From: a virus
Reading direction: 5' to 3' (one strand)
IMG/VR virus record: IMGVR_UViG_3300020411_003715
Span: 116,107-180,106 of that record
DNA length: 64,000 nt
Both the position numbers and the translations under genes were made by a program. How positions within the stretch are numbered: the first letter of the stretch is position 1; each line of letters opens with the position of its first letter. The notes below the pieces were generated by a model, which did not search any database, was not told the DNA's origin, and saw nothing but the letters and a program-made list of their open reading frames with translations. Below are positions 47,130-53,006 of this stretch, piece after piece.

Positions 47130-48173
47130 TTAGATCCTTGCCAGCACCGCTTCTCGAACTTCTTCGAGGAGTTTTGGTGATTTTGTGAGCATGTCGATGA
47201 CCCCGTCCAAACCGCCCTCAATGCGGTCTTCATAGTCAAGAATGTAGTAAAATCTACCCTTGTTGAACACGACCTTCTGCGCTTTTGCCGTGTTAACAAG
47301 ATCCGCGATCATGTCCACGCCCTCATTGAACTTGAAGACGTACTCACCCTCAGCACCCTCGCTGATCCCATGCTTGCCTTTTGACACCTTCCACTTAACC
47401 TCTTTTCCAACCTTGGTCCCGCCTTGTTTCACAAAGGCCCCCGGTCGCAGGTGGATGTCTACGGCTTTAGCATGCTTTAGCGCGTAGCCCCCCGGCTGCG
47501 TGTAGGGAACATACTTAGCGGAGTGCGCGTTCATGTTCGCACGGACGGGGTTAATCATTATAACGCACGTCTTATTCGGGGAGCCATCCTCCCCGGGCGC
47601 TCTCATGGCACTGTAGAACTTTCGACAAAAGTTACTGAGGAGGCTGGCCCACGTGGCTATCTTGGCGTCTTCACCTAGACCCTTTACCACGTTGTCCTTA
47701 GTCTCCCCTGAACCAAGCTCATTTATTATTAGTAGTTGGAACTCCTGCGATTTAACCAAATCGAGCATTACGTCCAGAAGAACCTCTGCTGGGCGCTCGG
47801 ACGCGGCCTCCTTTAGGTCCACAAAGAGAAGGTTACCGGCCCCGTTAAGGTCTACCCCAGCAAGTTCCATAAACTCAGGGTCGGGCTTGTACCCAAAGCT
47901 CATCCAGGCAACGTTCGCCTCTTTTCCGTACTCGCGCTGGACCTCTGCAATCACCCTGTTTGATAGGTAGTCTTTGCCAACACCGTCTGGCCCAAAAAGC
48001 TGGATCATGGACCCTGCGGGAAAGCCCCCTTTGAGGGCGATATCAAGAGATAATATCCCTGTAGGAAGCCGGGTCTCAAACGGAGTTGCAACGTCAGCCA
48101 TTGGCTGGATTGTTGCAGCGTTCCCCAGCCTTTTTTGGACATTCTTAATTAGTTGACTGAGGTCTTTTGCCAT
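47130..48173 (-). CDS. RecA/UvsX-like protein with degenerate ATPase motifs
   Basis: The 347-aa product aligns along its length with RecA: a TG-LSLDIALKGGFPAGS start, a P-loop region, PDPEFMELAGVD (RecA LDP-YA-KLGVD), an L2-like segment PGGYALKHAKAVDIHLR and a C-terminal FNEGVDMIADLV. The key ATPase residues differ. The P-loop reads GPDGVGKD (61-68), with Asp68 in place of Thr. The catalytic Glu96 of RecA maps to Gly94. The Walker-B Asp144 maps to Asn151. The Gln194 switch maps to Pro209. It may bind DNA without hydrolysing ATP, or use ATP differently. The context (RusA, Cas4-like, UvsY-like candidate) fits strand exchange. The reading frame is intact, so it is not a pseudogene. Shares TAATG with the upstream gene. 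Confidence 0.8.
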   Translation of the reverse strand: MAKDLSQLIKNVQKRLGNAATIQPMADVATPFETRLPTGILSLDIALKGGFPAGSMIQLFGPDGVGKDYLSNRVIAEVQREYGKEANVAWMSFGYKPDPEFMELAGVDLNGAGNLLFVDLKEAASERPAEVLLDVMLDLVKSQEFQLLIINELGSGETKDNVVKGLGEDAKIATWASLLSNFCRKFYSAMRAPGEDGSPNKTCVIMINPVRANMNAHSAKYVPYTQPGGYALKHAKAVDIHLRPGAFVKQGGTKVGKEVKWKVSKGKHGISEGAEGEYVFKFNEGVDMIADLVNTAKAQKVVFNKGRFYYILDYEDRIEGGLDGVIDMLTKSPKLLEEVREAVLARI

Positions 48174-48415
48174 TACTCCCCCTCAACTTCTTTCTTAAGC
48201 TGTGCAAACTCGTCAGCAAGCTCATCAGATATCTCCGTGTGCGTTTCGTAGACAGAGATCATGTCTTCGAGGAGCTTGAGTTTGAATTCTCGAATCATAC
48301 CGTTAGCTGTGCCGGAAGCTACCTTCTCAAGGGCCTCTTCTTCTGTCTCACACAGCTTCATTTTCATAAGGGTGGCAACCACACTTGAGGAGTCGCCGTA
48401 TTTCTCCATGGACAT
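48173..48415 (-). CDS. Small helical protein, unknown
   Basis: Not recognised. The 80-aa product has GGAGGG 5 nt before ATG. It is all-helical, mostly acidic (SVVATLMKMKLCETEEEALE, ISDELADEFAQLKKEVEGE). Coupled by TAATG on both sides, directly upstream of the RecA-like gene, so it may assist it; no direct evidence. Confidence 0.7.
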   Translation of the reverse strand: MSMEKYGDSSSVVATLMKMKLCETEEEALEKVASGTANGMIREFKLKLLEDMISVYETHTEISDELADEFAQLKKEVEGE

Positions 48416-48705: not shown

Positions 48706-48774
48706 CTATCTAAAGTCTCTGAGGTAGACAATAAAACCTGCCCCGACAATAAAACCTAAAGTAAAAGTCATCAT
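48706..48774 (-). CDS. 22-residue single-span membrane microprotein
   Basis: This short frame fills the gap between two genes. It starts ATG-ATG, overlapping the upstream stop (GAATGATG), with GGAGG just before (best spacing for the second ATG). The sequence MMTFTLGFIVGAGFIVYLR plus DFR is one hydrophobic segment with a G-x-x-x-G-like spacing and a basic end, as in small membrane peptides of phages (holin-like, or inhibitors of membrane proteins). The stop TAG lies 15 nt before the next gene's start. It has no homologue I can name. The gene call rests on the SD, coupling and composition. Confidence 0.5.
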   Translation of the reverse strand: MMTFTLGFIVGAGFIVYLRDFR

Positions 48775-49181
48775 TCCTCCAGAACCTCCTGTAGCGTGTG
48801 TTTGTGTAGAAATATTGGTGTAAGCTCCCCAACCCAAGCCCCTATGACGTTGTACTCGAAAAACTCCATAGCCCCTTCTCGGGACATGTTACTTCTCATC
48901 AAAACCTCTATGCACTTGTCATAATCATAGGTCGCCACAGGTCTATCGATCCCGAACCTTCTGGAGAGTCCGATAAAGGCGTCCTCAAACCCGTCTGCAA
49001 ACAAGAGGTCTTCGTCATGCTCGCCCTTTTCGTACGGGGTCGAGTAAAGACTCCCGTCGGTTGACAAAGACTTATCACTTTCTGCAGCCGCCAGCGCCTC
49101 AGCCTCGGAGTCGTAGGGGCCAACCTCTTCCTCGTCTTGGGTGGCAGGCGATGCTTTTGAGTAATACCAGTTTCTCTCCAT
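48771..49181 (-). CDS. Conserved phage protein with FEYNV-GAWVGE motif
   Basis: The product has 136 aa, with AAGGA 8 nt before ATG. Residues about 70-136 hold YDYDKCIEVLMR, then SREGAMEFFEYNVIGAWVGE and LTPIFLHKHT. This C-terminal pattern (C-IE-LM, EA-EFFE-NV-GAWVGE-TP-F) is common in small proteins of many unrelated phages; as far as I know it has no assigned function. The N-terminal part is acidic and low-complexity. It overlaps the membrane microprotein start. Confidence 0.75.
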   Translation of the reverse strand: MERNWYYSKASPATQDEEEVGPYDSEAEALAAAESDKSLSTDGSLYSTPYEKGEHDEDLLFADGFEDAFIGLSRRFGIDRPVATYDYDKCIEVLMRSNMSREGAMEFFEYNVIGAWVGELTPIFLHKHTLQEVLEE

Positions 49182-49513: not shown

Positions 49514-49753
49514 CTACTCCTCCTGCTGCCGTAGCTGCTCTCTAAGCTCTCGGACGCTCCGCGTTCTTCCCCGTAGCTTTTTATTTAGTTGTCTAATCTC
49601 CTGGATACGCTTGGTACCAAGAAGTCTATAAGCCCTGCGGGTTACCGCAGCGTCAGAGCGCTTCAGCTTTCTGGCTATTCGGGTGACGTGGTGTGTCGGC
49701 CAAAGCCTCCGCACCACTTCATCCTCATGCCTGCTCCAGGCTCTTTTTATCAC
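49514..49753 (-). CDS. Myb/SANT-like DNA-binding protein
   Basis: GTG 49753 (79 aa) overlaps the upstream stop by four bases (GTGA) and places the domain at the N terminus; an upstream GTG at 49795 would overlap by 46 bp. WSRHEDEVVRRLWPTHHVTR, IARKLKRSDAAVTRRAYRLL is a Myb/SANT helix-turn-helix: Trp at the start of helix 1, an acidic ED turn, and recognition helix RSDAAVTRRA. The tail is a basic coiled coil (IRQLNKKLRGRTRSVRELRE). Phage relatives regulate transcription or accompany homing nucleases; no nuclease is seen here. Probably a transcriptional regulator within the leftward operon. Confidence 0.7.
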   Translation of the reverse strand: MIKRAWSRHEDEVVRRLWPTHHVTRIARKLKRSDAAVTRRAYRLLGTKRIQEIRQLNKKLRGRTRSVRELREQLRQQEE

Positions 49754-49944
49754 GGGGTAATACCGTAGGTACTCAGGTCTTCGCCCGTCTGACACTCAAT
49801 GTGAAAGATCTCACCTGTCTCCAATTGAGTAACTACGGCGACGGTCTCTTCAGACCGCAACCGTTCAAGCATATCTCGAAGAGCCTCCTTTGGGCTTTCC
49901 GCTTCTAATTCGTCGGTTATTTCCACTGAGTAAGATTTGCCCAT
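49750..49944 (-). CDS. Small acidic protein, unknown
   Basis: Not recognised. The 64-aa product (ATG 49944; ATG 49947 directly before is possible) starts in the same stop/SD/start junction type as its neighbours: GGAG, then TGTAAATG-ATG. It reads VEITDELEAESPKEALRDML, then a strand region (VAVVTQLETGEIFHIECQTG). The plan helix plus two strands is similar to many short phage early proteins. No function can be given. Confidence 0.65.
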   Translation of the reverse strand: MGKSYSVEITDELEAESPKEALRDMLERLRSEETVAVVTQLETGEIFHIECQTGEDLSTYGITP

Positions 49945-50204
49945 CATTTACACTCCACGGTTCCGTCCTCGTCTATGTCGATACCTTCGACATTGGCTTT
50001 CTGGACAAACCAGCCTTGTAGGTTTTCGTTTATATGCTTCACTAGGTCTTCCGACGAGATCGCGCAGTCTGTGTCGAGGTGCCAAGCCGGGTAGTTATCC
50101 GGCGTGTACGAAACCTCCTTGATGGCCGTATCACCGTCCATCACCCACAGAACCGCAGATGCCCCGTCAGTAAGGGCGACATTGCCCCGCTCGTTATCTG
50201 CCAT
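49944..50204 (-). CDS. Small acidic protein, unknown
   Basis: Not recognised. The product has 86 aa, with GAGGAG 6 nt before ATG 50204. Strand-rich N-terminal half (ASAVLWVMDGDTAIKEVSYT), helix (SSEDLVKHINENLQGWFVQK) and an acidic end (GIDIDEDGTVECK). The C-terminal ECK is encoded by the shared junction sequence seen in several genes of this run. Confidence 0.7.
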   Translation of the reverse strand: MADNERGNVALTDGASAVLWVMDGDTAIKEVSYTPDNYPAWHLDTDCAISSEDLVKHINENLQGWFVQKANVEGIDIDEDGTVECK

Positions 50205-50207
50205 CAG

Positions 50208-50351
50208 TTACTCCTCGGCATACCGACTTAACGCCTCGTGCGCGATCCGCCGCATATTGTCGAAATCCGCCAGGATGTCGGATGTCGGCGTATCGTCGTC
50301 ATAGGCGTGCTGGCATATTAGCTCCAGCGCCAGCAGCAATTCTTTTTCCAT
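50208..50351 (-). CDS. Small helical acidic protein (47 aa)
   Basis: The frame from ATG 50351 (or ATG 50354, directly before) to TAA 50208 fills a gap with no other gene. GGAGG lies 7 nt before ATG 50351, and the start shares a base with the upstream stop (TGATG). The product is helical: MEKELLLALELICQHAYDDD, then TSDILADFDNMRRIAHEALS. Not recognised. The junction type, spacing and codon use match its neighbours, so it is very probably translated. Confidence 0.65.
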   Translation of the reverse strand: MEKELLLALELICQHAYDDDTPTSDILADFDNMRRIAHEALSRYAEE

Positions 50352-50587
50352 CATTTACCCTCCAACCAGCCCTTGAGGCCCTCTCTCACGTCAATTTCTG
50401 AAGGAACTCCCTCACCGTCGTCGTGCCAAGGCTCGCCCTCATTAAGGCAGTTTCCTCTATTGTCGTACAAATCGTAGAAGCGGTCCTTGTCTGCTTCGGG
50501 CTCCTTGCCCTGCCAGCAGAGGACCACATCCACTTGTTTATTGTTTATTACGTAGGACGCTACGGTTTCGCTGTGAAGCTTGCTCAT
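50351..50587 (-). CDS. Conserved-type small phage protein
   Basis: ATG 50587 (78 aa) is 8 nt from GGAG and shares a base with the upstream stop (TGATG). VDVVLCWQGKEPEADKDRFY, DLYDNRGNCLNEGEPWHDDG is a beta pair with a YD--GNCLNEG motif, which I associate with small phage proteins of unknown role. The C-terminal helix is short (EIDVREGLKGWLEGK). Confidence 0.7.
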   Translation of the reverse strand: MSKLHSETVASYVINNKQVDVVLCWQGKEPEADKDRFYDLYDNRGNCLNEGEPWHDDGEGVPSEIDVREGLKGWLEGK

Positions 50588-50937
50588 CACTTACACTCCT
50601 CTAGGCTTTTGAGGAGAGCAAGGTGGTACTGCTCCGCCTGTCCTTTTGAGCCATCCTGAGGAAAGCTTCTTGAGTTACGTGCCTCCTCTAGGAGCCTCTC
50701 GAAAAGGCTAATAGCCTTTCGGCGCATACTTTCTTTTGTCTCGCCCCAATGGGCGAATTCTGATTCATCGTCCACTATTAGCTCTACGGTTAGCGCGGAG
50801 TCATTAACGTATTCCACACCGTCTAAGAAACCGGTGGCCGCTTGTTCTGATGTAGGCCCATAGATAATGGACCCATTATTTTCAGGATTATCTGTGTCGC
50901 TTTTTATGGCGACCTTGTATTTACTATCAGTTTCCAT
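50587..50937 (-). CDS. Small acidic protein, unknown
   Basis: Not recognised. The 116-aa product (ATG 50937; GTG 50940 just upstream in frame) lies directly downstream of the 28-nt direct repeat. The N-terminal part is strand-rich (KYKVAIKSDTDNPENNGSII), followed by helices (SMRRKAISLFERLLEEARNS and LALLKSLEECK). The last three residues, ECK, come from the shared junction sequence. Confidence 0.7.
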   Translation of the reverse strand: METDSKYKVAIKSDTDNPENNGSIIYGPTSEQAATGFLDGVEYVNDSALTVELIVDDESEFAHWGETKESMRRKAISLFERLLEEARNSRSFPQDGSKGQAEQYHLALLKSLEECK

Positions 50938-50959
50938 CACTTACACTCCATCCAGTTGT
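50932..50959 (-). repeat. 28-nt direct repeat, copy 2
   Basis: 27 of 28 bases equal those at 51112-51139, exactly 180 bp away. It contains the stop codon of the 58-aa gene, the SD (GGAG) and the start codons of the next gene. The two copies are read in different frames by the upstream genes. Confidence 0.9.
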
Positions 50960-51117
50960 TCTTCATCTCTGGCCCTCCGCTCCAGGTACTCCTGTAAGTG
51001 GGATTCGTAGCCAGCGCCGGGGACTGGTTGAACGCCCTCTATGTAGTCGCACAGAATGGAAATAATTGATTGGTCATTCCACCCCATTAGTCGCTGATAT
51101 TCTCGTATTAGTTCCAT
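50941..51117 (-). CDS. 58-residue microgene flanked by direct repeats
   Basis: The frame from ATG 51117 (GTG 51120 in frame directly before) to TAA 50941 codes for 58 residues: MELIREYQRLMGWNDQSIIS, then ILCDYIEGVQPVPG and a C-terminal charged helix (LQEYLERRARDEEQLDGV). GGAG lies 8 nt before ATG, and the start shares a base with the polymerase stop (TGATG). Not recognised. N-terminal Tyr/Trp helix and an acidic end. It lies exactly between two 28-nt direct repeats, so recombination between them would remove it without harming either neighbour. Confidence 0.7.
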   Translation of the reverse strand: MELIREYQRLMGWNDQSIISILCDYIEGVQPVPGAGYESHLQEYLERRARDEEQLDGV

Positions 51118-51139
51118 CACTTACACTCCAGCCAGTTGT
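51112..51139 (-). repeat. 28-nt direct repeat, copy 1
   Basis: Copy at the 3' end of the polymerase gene. It codes the final DNWLECK residues, the stop and the SD of the next gene. See copy at 50932-50959 (one mismatch). Confidence 0.9.
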
Positions 51140-53006
51140 CCCCGTACTTGCTTGACGTTTCCAAAGGAACTGCCAAGTCAAAGTCAAAGGGATGCATCAT
51201 TAGGTCTCTGATGCGGTCGTTAAATTCTTTGTCATCTACGTACTCATCAGGAACTTCAAACACGATCTCATCGTGTACCTGAATCACCATTCGCGTGCCT
51301 GATGCCGTGATCAGGGGGTCTTCCCAGATACGAACCATGGCCATCTTTGTAATATCTGCCGCAGAGCCCTGGATTGGAGAGTTTTTTACTTTCCTCTCGG
51401 CCTGGGCTTGGTCTGACCCAACTCGGGAACTCAGCCCCGGCACAAGCCTTCTTCGGCCGAGAATTGTTGAACAGTGTCCCGAGCGCCTTGCGGATGAGAT
51501 TGCTGACTTAAAGTACTTTGTAACTTTAGGGAACGCCGCGAAGTATTGCCGAATCAGCATTCTTGCTTCGTCCGTAGAGCACCCCAATGTTGCGCCGAGA
51601 GCCCCGGCCCCCTGCCCGTACATGAGACCAAAGTTAATAGCCTTCGCGCCTTTTCTGTGGGAGAGTAGCCTGCGGTCGTATTCACTCAGGTCTTCGTCGT
51701 TATCATCACGTTCCCTGGCCAACATAATATGCTCATACGGTACTTTGAACATTTTAGCAGCCGTAGATGAGTGGACGTCCATGCCGCCAATAATAGCCTC
51801 GGACAAGGTTTCATCTTCAGAGAAGTGGGCAAGGATTCTCATCTCAAGCTGCGCGTAATCTGACGCGAGAAGTCGATGGCCCGGACTGGGCAGATAGGCA
51901 GACCGTATGTATGGGGGCTGGTTCTGAAGGTTTGGCGCGGATGAGCTGAGTCGTCCCGTCCGAGCCCCAGTCTGATTGAAAGACGCGTGGATGCGTCCAC
52001 CCCGGTGAATCTTTTCAAGAAGATTAGATATGTAGGTGCCGAGCTTTTTATCCAGGTCCCGGTAGTGCAGTAGCCTCTCGGCGTATTCACAGCCAGCGCT
52101 TTTCCATTTGCCCAGAACTTCTTTGTTAAGCTGAGGTTTCCCTTTTTCCGTGTAGGATATTGGGGACCGGCCCAGATCGTTGAAAAAGAAATTACCCATT
52201 TGATCGTTACTGTTTAGGTTCACATAAAGCTTGCCAGTCGCCCGCCCAAACCACTTCTGTATGTCTAGAAGCTCTTCCTCGATCAGAGGGGCTTGAGAGA
52301 GAAGTGCGTCTTTGTCGATAAGAACGCCTGTGCGCTCCATTTCCCAAAGAACTCTCGTAAAAGGAACCTCAGTTTCTAGGTAATAGTCCCAGAGTGTTGG
52401 GTATGTGTCCGCGTCAATATTAATCCCTAATAACTCCTCCCTAAGCTCAAAGAAAAGCTTGTAGGTAGCGTATGCATCTAGAGAGGCGTAGTTAGTTACT
52501 ATTTGCTCATTTTCGTCATCGAGGAGAACTTCGTGAAGCTTCCTTTTTCGCAACATTTTTCCGAAAACAGCCTTAAACGGGACCATCTCGATGCCCAAGT
52601 ATCTTTCCGATAAATATTTCAAATCGTGCGGAAGGGTGTCATCCGCCAGAGCGTGCATGACCATGGTGTCGAACACGCGGTAATGGTTTCGATTGGCGTG
52701 CCGGTTCACATCTATGCCGGAGTTAAGGAGCATCCAGCAGTCAAAGTTTGCGTTGTGCATTACTAGTTTTATTTCTGGATGCTCAAGCATTTCCTTGAAG
52801 TAGGGGATGACCTCTGGCCATACGGCCCAACGTTCTTCCCCATCACTCAGGGCTAAAATTATTGCGCGATCCTTTTGCCGGGAGAGACCTGTGGTCTCCG
52901 TGTCCACGGCGACTATTTTCTTAGATTGGAGCCGTTCTGCCGCAGCAATAGCCTCTTCCGGCTCTCGGACGCAGATCGGCTCTGGGAGTATTGAGAACAT
53001 CCCCAT
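51117..53006 (-). CDS. polA: Family A DNA polymerase (PolA type) with 3'-5' exonuclease
   Basis: The product has 629 aa. The proofreading domain has VAVDTETTGLS (exo I), HNANFD (exo II) and the YASLDAY region (exo III), with all acidic metal ligands kept. The polymerase domain has motif A DYAQLEMRILAHFS, motif B RKGAKAINFGLMYGQGAG and motif C VHDEIVFEVPD. The residue equal to E. coli Phe762 is Phe, so discrimination against dideoxynucleotides should be normal for this site. There is no 5' nuclease domain, which explains the shorter length than E. coli Pol I (928 aa). It is the phage replicase. GGAGG lies 9 nt before ATG. A structured RNA candidate lies just upstream. Confidence 0.95.
   Translation of the reverse strand: MGMFSILPEPICVREPEEAIAAAERLQSKKIVAVDTETTGLSRQKDRAIILALSDGEERWAVWPEVIPYFKEMLEHPEIKLVMHNANFDCWMLLNSGIDVNRHANRNHYRVFDTMVMHALADDTLPHDLKYLSERYLGIEMVPFKAVFGKMLRKRKLHEVLLDDENEQIVTNYASLDAYATYKLFFELREELLGINIDADTYPTLWDYYLETEVPFTRVLWEMERTGVLIDKDALLSQAPLIEEELLDIQKWFGRATGKLYVNLNSNDQMGNFFFNDLGRSPISYTEKGKPQLNKEVLGKWKSAGCEYAERLLHYRDLDKKLGTYISNLLEKIHRGGRIHASFNQTGARTGRLSSSAPNLQNQPPYIRSAYLPSPGHRLLASDYAQLEMRILAHFSEDETLSEAIIGGMDVHSSTAAKMFKVPYEHIMLARERDDNDEDLSEYDRRLLSHRKGAKAINFGLMYGQGAGALGATLGCSTDEARMLIRQYFAAFPKVTKYFKSAISSARRSGHCSTILGRRRLVPGLSSRVGSDQAQAERKVKNSPIQGSAADITKMAMVRIWEDPLITASGTRMVIQVHDEIVFEVPDEYVDDKEFNDRIRDLMMHPFDFDLAVPLETSSKYGDNWLECK

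Follow-up and report, generated by a model that had tools for sequence, protein, structure and literature searches.

In T4-type phages, the elements called PeSLs reportedly carry an early promoter together with a stem-loop and lie between shuffled small genes. These mobile regulatory cassettes (Arbiol 2010; Comeau 2014) are cited in PMC4503421. The start-associated sequences (SAS) of Cluster K mycobacteriophages are 13-bp asymmetric repeats at gene starts, which have been tied to translation initiation. They occur genome-wide in 11–19 copies per genome, upstream of starts and often in large intergenic gaps, and their possible role as recombination targets was noted by the authors (PMC3203893). 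Conserved boundary sequences have been proposed as a target of the homologous recombination that joins non-homologous phage modules, most boundaries being without them, and in the mycobacteriophages Island3 and Brujita the presence or absence of a gene was attributed to recombination inferred between repeats of about 50 bp (PMC3029335).

The window analysed here is a 64,000-nt stretch (positions 116,107–180,106) of the virus record IMGVR_UViG_3300020411_003715, which comprises 180,106 bp in total. In the initial annotation, a microgene was described between two direct repeats of this stretch, and the description proved to be accurate. The repeats (50932–50959 and 51112–51139) are identical at 27 of 28 positions and lie 180 bp apart from start to start; each copy contains an SD (GGAG), TAA/TGA stops and (A/G)TG-ATG starts, and the ORF between them (50941–51120) has 58 codons counted from ATG, or 59 from GTG. 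The two copies are also read in different frames, as had been stated, the polymerase ending in ...DNWLECK* and the microgene in ...QLDGV*. An 18-mer taken from the repeat matches the window five times when up to 3 mismatches are allowed, whereas 0.04 matches are expected; therefore, the repeat is not a product of chance. The two repeats are two of the five copies of a 15-nt module, GGAGTGTAARTGATG, and the further three copies were absent from the initial annotation. All five lie on one strand, within 1.2 kb, and occupy five of the first six junctions between genes downstream of a family-A DNA polymerase, and the genes of the locus are on the minus strand:

51117..53006, minus strand: family-A DNA polymerase with 3'-5' exonuclease (Pfam DNA_pol_A 4e-100, exonuclease 5e-25)
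51115..51129, minus strand: module copy 1 (GGAGTGTAAGTGATG) at the polymerase end, also conserved at the polymerase end of relatives
50941..51120, minus strand: g1, the microgene, 59 aa (GTG) or 58 aa (ATG); homologs in relatives match residues 1–56
50935..50949, minus strand: module copy 2, where the similarity to the polymerase end widens to 28 nt (50932–50959)
50587..50940, minus strand: g2, 117 aa, a chimera ending in ..EECK* inside the module
50585..50599, minus strand: module copy 3
50351..50590, minus strand: g3, 79 aa, ending in ..WLEGK*; homologs in G002 and G010 match residues 1–75
50349..50363, minus strand: module copy 4, with one mismatch; the least certain copy, as g3 homologs have their own GGAGG here
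50208..50354, minus strand: g4, 48 aa, no homolog found
49944..50204, minus strand: g5, 86 aa, ending in ..VECK*, no homolog found
49942..49956, minus strand: module copy 5
49750..49947, minus strand: g6, family F5, which also occurs in the islands of several relatives
49514..49795, minus strand: g7, family F24, 95.3% nucleotide identity to L006 over 169 bp
48771..49181, minus strand: g9, family F16; in L001 a homolog directly follows the polymerase
47130..48173, minus strand: RecA-family recombinase (Pfam RecA 1e-24), syntenic in relatives

The 3' end of g4 is the only one of the first six junctions without the module, and copy 4 may be the own 3' end of g3, at least in part. Elsewhere in the 180,106-bp record, no copy was found at up to 2 mismatches, and reversed-pattern controls were also zero. 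In 19 related records (1.52 Mb), matches with at most 1 mismatch were confined to polymerase ends and, in L007 and L026/L029, to a site one gene farther downstream. A scan of viral contigs with TGGAGTGTAARTGATG returned mostly unrelated single matches. The similarity of the five copies in the window does not fall steadily with distance, and there is no clean gradient; copy 2, which matches the polymerase end over the greatest length (28 nt) and is also the closest to the polymerase, would fit the most recent event.

Module copy 1 is encoded by the polymerase C-terminus (..DNWLECK*), of which N624, W625, E627, C628 and K629 (NW.ECK*) are invariant in 14 relatives. PolA-like genes in bacterial MAG contigs, at about 31–34% identity, likewise end in NWLECK; the genome-contig scan gave such PolA-like genes with the same C-terminus along with chance matches, and no related phages. 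Because of the protein constraint visible in the invariant NW.ECK and in the distant PolA-like genes, the polymerase copy is likely the source of the module. The non-polymerase copies are read in two different frames. The last polymerase codons, GAG TGT AAR TGA, overlap the SD GGAG, and the module provides stops in two of the three frames (GGA GTG TAA and GAG TGT AAR TGA), together with a restart made of two consecutive start codons, RTG ATG. The TAA frame ends g1 (DGV*) and the L029 gene (AGV*), and the TGA frame ends the polymerase, g2, g3, g5 and the L007 gene.

Comparison of 14 related phages reveals near-perfect synteny up to the polymerase stop, and gene order is conserved again from the RecA-like gene onward, the recombinase forming the conserved distal flank of the variable island. 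Directly after the polymerase, 13 gene families are found in 14 genomes, against 1–2 neighbour families at upstream core junctions. L007 and L008 share 94.4% identity across 7.9 kb, up to a point 2 nt beyond the polymerase stop; there, L008 carries a 70-aa gene that L007 does not have and that bears no module at its 3' end. In both phages F26 comes next, at only 79% identity; the F26 gene of L007 ends in a second module, and the TGGAG at the fusion point is common to L008. In L001 the polymerase is followed by F16, and in L002 directly by F23, with one module copy and no microgene, which is the arrangement that the initial annotation had suggested looking for at the polymerase 3' end of relatives. 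Most relatives have a single module copy, yet the gene after the polymerase is changed. The idea that small genes come and go at a translation signal already in place was thus borne out by the differing gene in nearly every relative, by L002 and by the whole-gene difference between L007 and L008, and such gain and loss at the polymerase-end signal is well supported by these genome comparisons. No comparable support was seen for recombination between the repeats as the device of gain and loss. The five copies, their polymerase-coding origin and the lost 3' ends of genes point to fusion of incoming genes to the polymerase end more than to simple cassette exchange. No near-identical genome pair with and without a complete module–gene unit (the 180-bp unit included) was found, and near-identical contigs from different samples showed no variation at this site. 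A nucleotide search of cultured phages gave no matches, and the best cultured-phage polymerases among the matches listed are about 33% identical; therefore, there is no isolate for comparison.

The locus resembles conserved boundary sequences in having a short shared sequence at boundaries where differing modules join, the same polymerase-end module standing before all of these gene families. From the L007/L008 breakpoint we infer that homologous recombination may take place at the module. In contrast to conserved boundary sequences, the module is a single hot spot derived from the C-terminal codons of an essential gene, and it is itself a stop–restart translation signal that is multiplied downstream. 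With T4 PeSLs it shares the character of a small repeated regulatory element between shuffled small genes, a ready-made expression signal; however, neither promoter nor stem-loop was detected, and the module would act, if at all, in translation. No sigma-70-like site is present in 49700–51400, this being the promoter type covered, the five copies have no common stable hairpin, and no terminator-like site was found on the coding strand. The absence of a shared hairpin is also what can be said of a likeness to integron-like cassette arrays, which are marked by an integrase and attC sites. Like SAS, the module is a short repeat at gene starts with a probable link to translation initiation, but it also includes the stop codon of the preceding gene and occurs at a single locus: its sequence is different from the genome-wide 13-bp repeat GGGATAGGAGCCC, and its copies stay within 1.2 kb behind the polymerase. 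The Island3/Brujita case also involves a gene present or absent between short repeats, but it is a single event, whereas here a recurrent docking site with stacked copies is seen. PeSLs and SAS are the nearest repeated elements, and neither matches the module in sequence, make-up or distribution. The unusual aspect is the use of an essential gene's end as an adaptor and its multiplication downstream, of which a limited literature search found no report.

As for the genes themselves, Pfam and PHROGs assigned no function to any of g1–g6. The own-frame codon score of g1 is intermediate, at the 8th percentile of real-gene windows, and 3% of off-frame windows score as high. Judged by its homologs, g1 belongs to a real gene family of unassigned function, because three relatives have a homolog with a conserved GW(N/T)(D/E) stretch followed by a helix-like region. 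A scan of viral sequences by pattern gave no relatives of the microgene or g5; since the microgene family was found by full-record searches, its earlier negative reflects a limit of that scan. In these searches, g1 homologs turned up far away from the polymerase: G005 has one at 17 kb, G010 one at 145 kb and G006 one at 155 kb. The N-terminal part of g2 resembles F23, and its C-terminal part (g2C) a gene at 129.4 kb of G002; the L026/L029 gene also looks chimeric. Remote loci of this type in G002 and G010 hold homologs of g3 and g2C; in G002 those of g2C and g3 are near each other, and the two may have arrived jointly instead of one by one. Moreover, polymerase-island genes of L004, L008, L012, L150 and L151 also have homologs in remote loci. 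Both loci therefore draw on one gene pool, which suggests that the second locus is the likely source of the polymerase-end genes. In the window's genome (G000, about 67.6–68.6 kb), the 254-aa and 80-aa genes that flank the remote locus adjoin directly, and the block that carries the g1, g2C and g3 homologs in relatives is missing.

The second hypervariable locus, which harbours these same families of small genes, was located at 128–130 kb in G002 (L226), 143–146 kb in G010 (L227), 16–18 kb in G005 (L228), 154–157 kb in G006 (L229) and 67.6–68.6 kb in G000 (L231). In G000, G002 and G005 it begins at a conserved gene starting MGLDWC.

In all four genes that precede a secondary module and have homologs, the homology stops 2–4 residues before the stop codon, where the module begins (g1, 1–56 of 59; g2, to 115 of 117; g3, 1–75 of 79; F26 of L007, 1–75 of 77), although these homologs are distant (36–69% identity), so that natural variation of gene ends can mimic truncation. 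Over the 169 bp shared by g7 and L006, 50 codons differ by 4 synonymous and 2 non-synonymous codon changes. Because this identity of 95.3% is set against about 68% at the nucleotide level in the polymerases, F24 represents a recent lateral transfer. The matching F24 segments are window 49570–49738 and L006 8042–8210, and their position relative to F5 differs between the genomes.

It is rather probable that small genes from a shared pool dock at the 3' end of the polymerase gene and that the extra module copies mark earlier, stacked insertions. A DNA end inside an incoming small gene would join the polymerase end of another genome copy, often through GGAG microhomology, and the product would have the order polymerase–module–new gene–module–old gene. 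The incoming gene would lose its own tail on joining, and the module would then supply its stop and the start of the next gene. Repeated joining would stack genes with a module copy between each, and these copies might later allow gene deletion by homologous recombination, which is possible and was unobserved. The turnover at an exact point, the tail loss at the module, the shared gene pool and the recent transfer are seen in the sequences; the joining reaction, the order of events and the translational coupling are the parts that we infer.

The model of the initial annotation was an exchange of cassettes, in which homologous recombination between two module copies inserts or deletes the gene bounded by them and one copy stays. 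It is in keeping with the direct copies of 28 and 15 nt that flank whole genes, with the RecA-family recombinase encoded nearby and with L002, whose arrangement is the one expected after loss of g1. However, two copies are not needed, since single-copy relatives also change the gene after the polymerase, and the extra gene of L008 has no module at its 3' end. Moreover, 15 nt is a short repeat length for general recombination, and this model is considered unlikely. A single relocation of the small-gene run from the remote locus, followed by deletions or template switching that copied the module into the junctions, seems highly improbable, even though homologs of g1, g2C and g3 occur in one remote region of relatives and the corresponding block is missing from the locus of the window's genome. 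The gene order differs, the N-terminal part of g2 derives from F23, a family that already adjoins the polymerase in L002, deletion alone makes no module copy, and the single-gene module pairs of L007 and L026/L029 fit one-by-one joining.

The core of the module coincides exactly with an SD-to-start signal, its borders being the SD and the second start, so that selection for translation might by itself be enough to preserve it; TGATG-like stop/start overlaps are a well-known device that couples the translation of neighbouring genes (PMC6728339). That the module is only such a coupling signal, kept or independently arisen as an efficient stop–restart site and having no role in gene movement, is nevertheless very unlikely: all other junctions of the 180-kb record are without it, as are essentially all in the 1.52 Mb of relatives. 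In the window, TGTAA recurs only at module sites and GGAG-to-start spacers are otherwise almost all different, and copy 2 reaches into polymerase codons past any start signal. A misjoining of contigs from co-occurring phages at a shared short repeat might be suspected for L007, whose contig stops 57 nt after the second module and which shares its source metagenome with L006. As an explanation of the locus it has a minimal chance of being right, because the two-copy arrangement of L026/L029 was obtained from two separate samples at 99.86% identity and the five copies of the window lie inside a 180-kb record.

The docking of small genes at the polymerase end touches the open question of how phages acquire many small unknown genes and express them at once. 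Here, the landing point, the translation signal and the traces of former insertions are all readable in the sequence, and the window with its relatives provides concrete, testable junctions. The polymerase-end signal looks like a way of plugging in small genes that would be translated at once. A wider proposal, offered tentatively and judged somewhat less than probable, is that the essential polymerase end serves as a universal adaptor for gene capture, the captured genes being translationally coupled to the polymerase and each leaving a fossil adaptor copy. The two-frame stops and the restart codons would make gene fusions at the polymerase end translatable and, if the proposal is true, the fossil copies would allow one capture after another to be read from the sequence.

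A GIY-YIG or HNH_3 homing enzyme was rejected as a driver in the window's genome, as neither domain was found in the record. Most relatives encode single-domain GIY-YIG proteins in their variable island, in one case immediately behind the polymerase; examples are L011 7892–8158 and L006 9521–9772. The end of the L007 contig, 57 nt past the second module, perhaps reflects assembly branching there. At window positions 48312–48348, in a small gene beside the RecA-like gene, 37 nt are 94.6% identical to the more distant L155. In L010, the first 45 nt after the polymerase stop contain a 21-nt in-frame tandem duplication (ATGGAAGCAGGAGACGAA repeated) at the start of the first gene.
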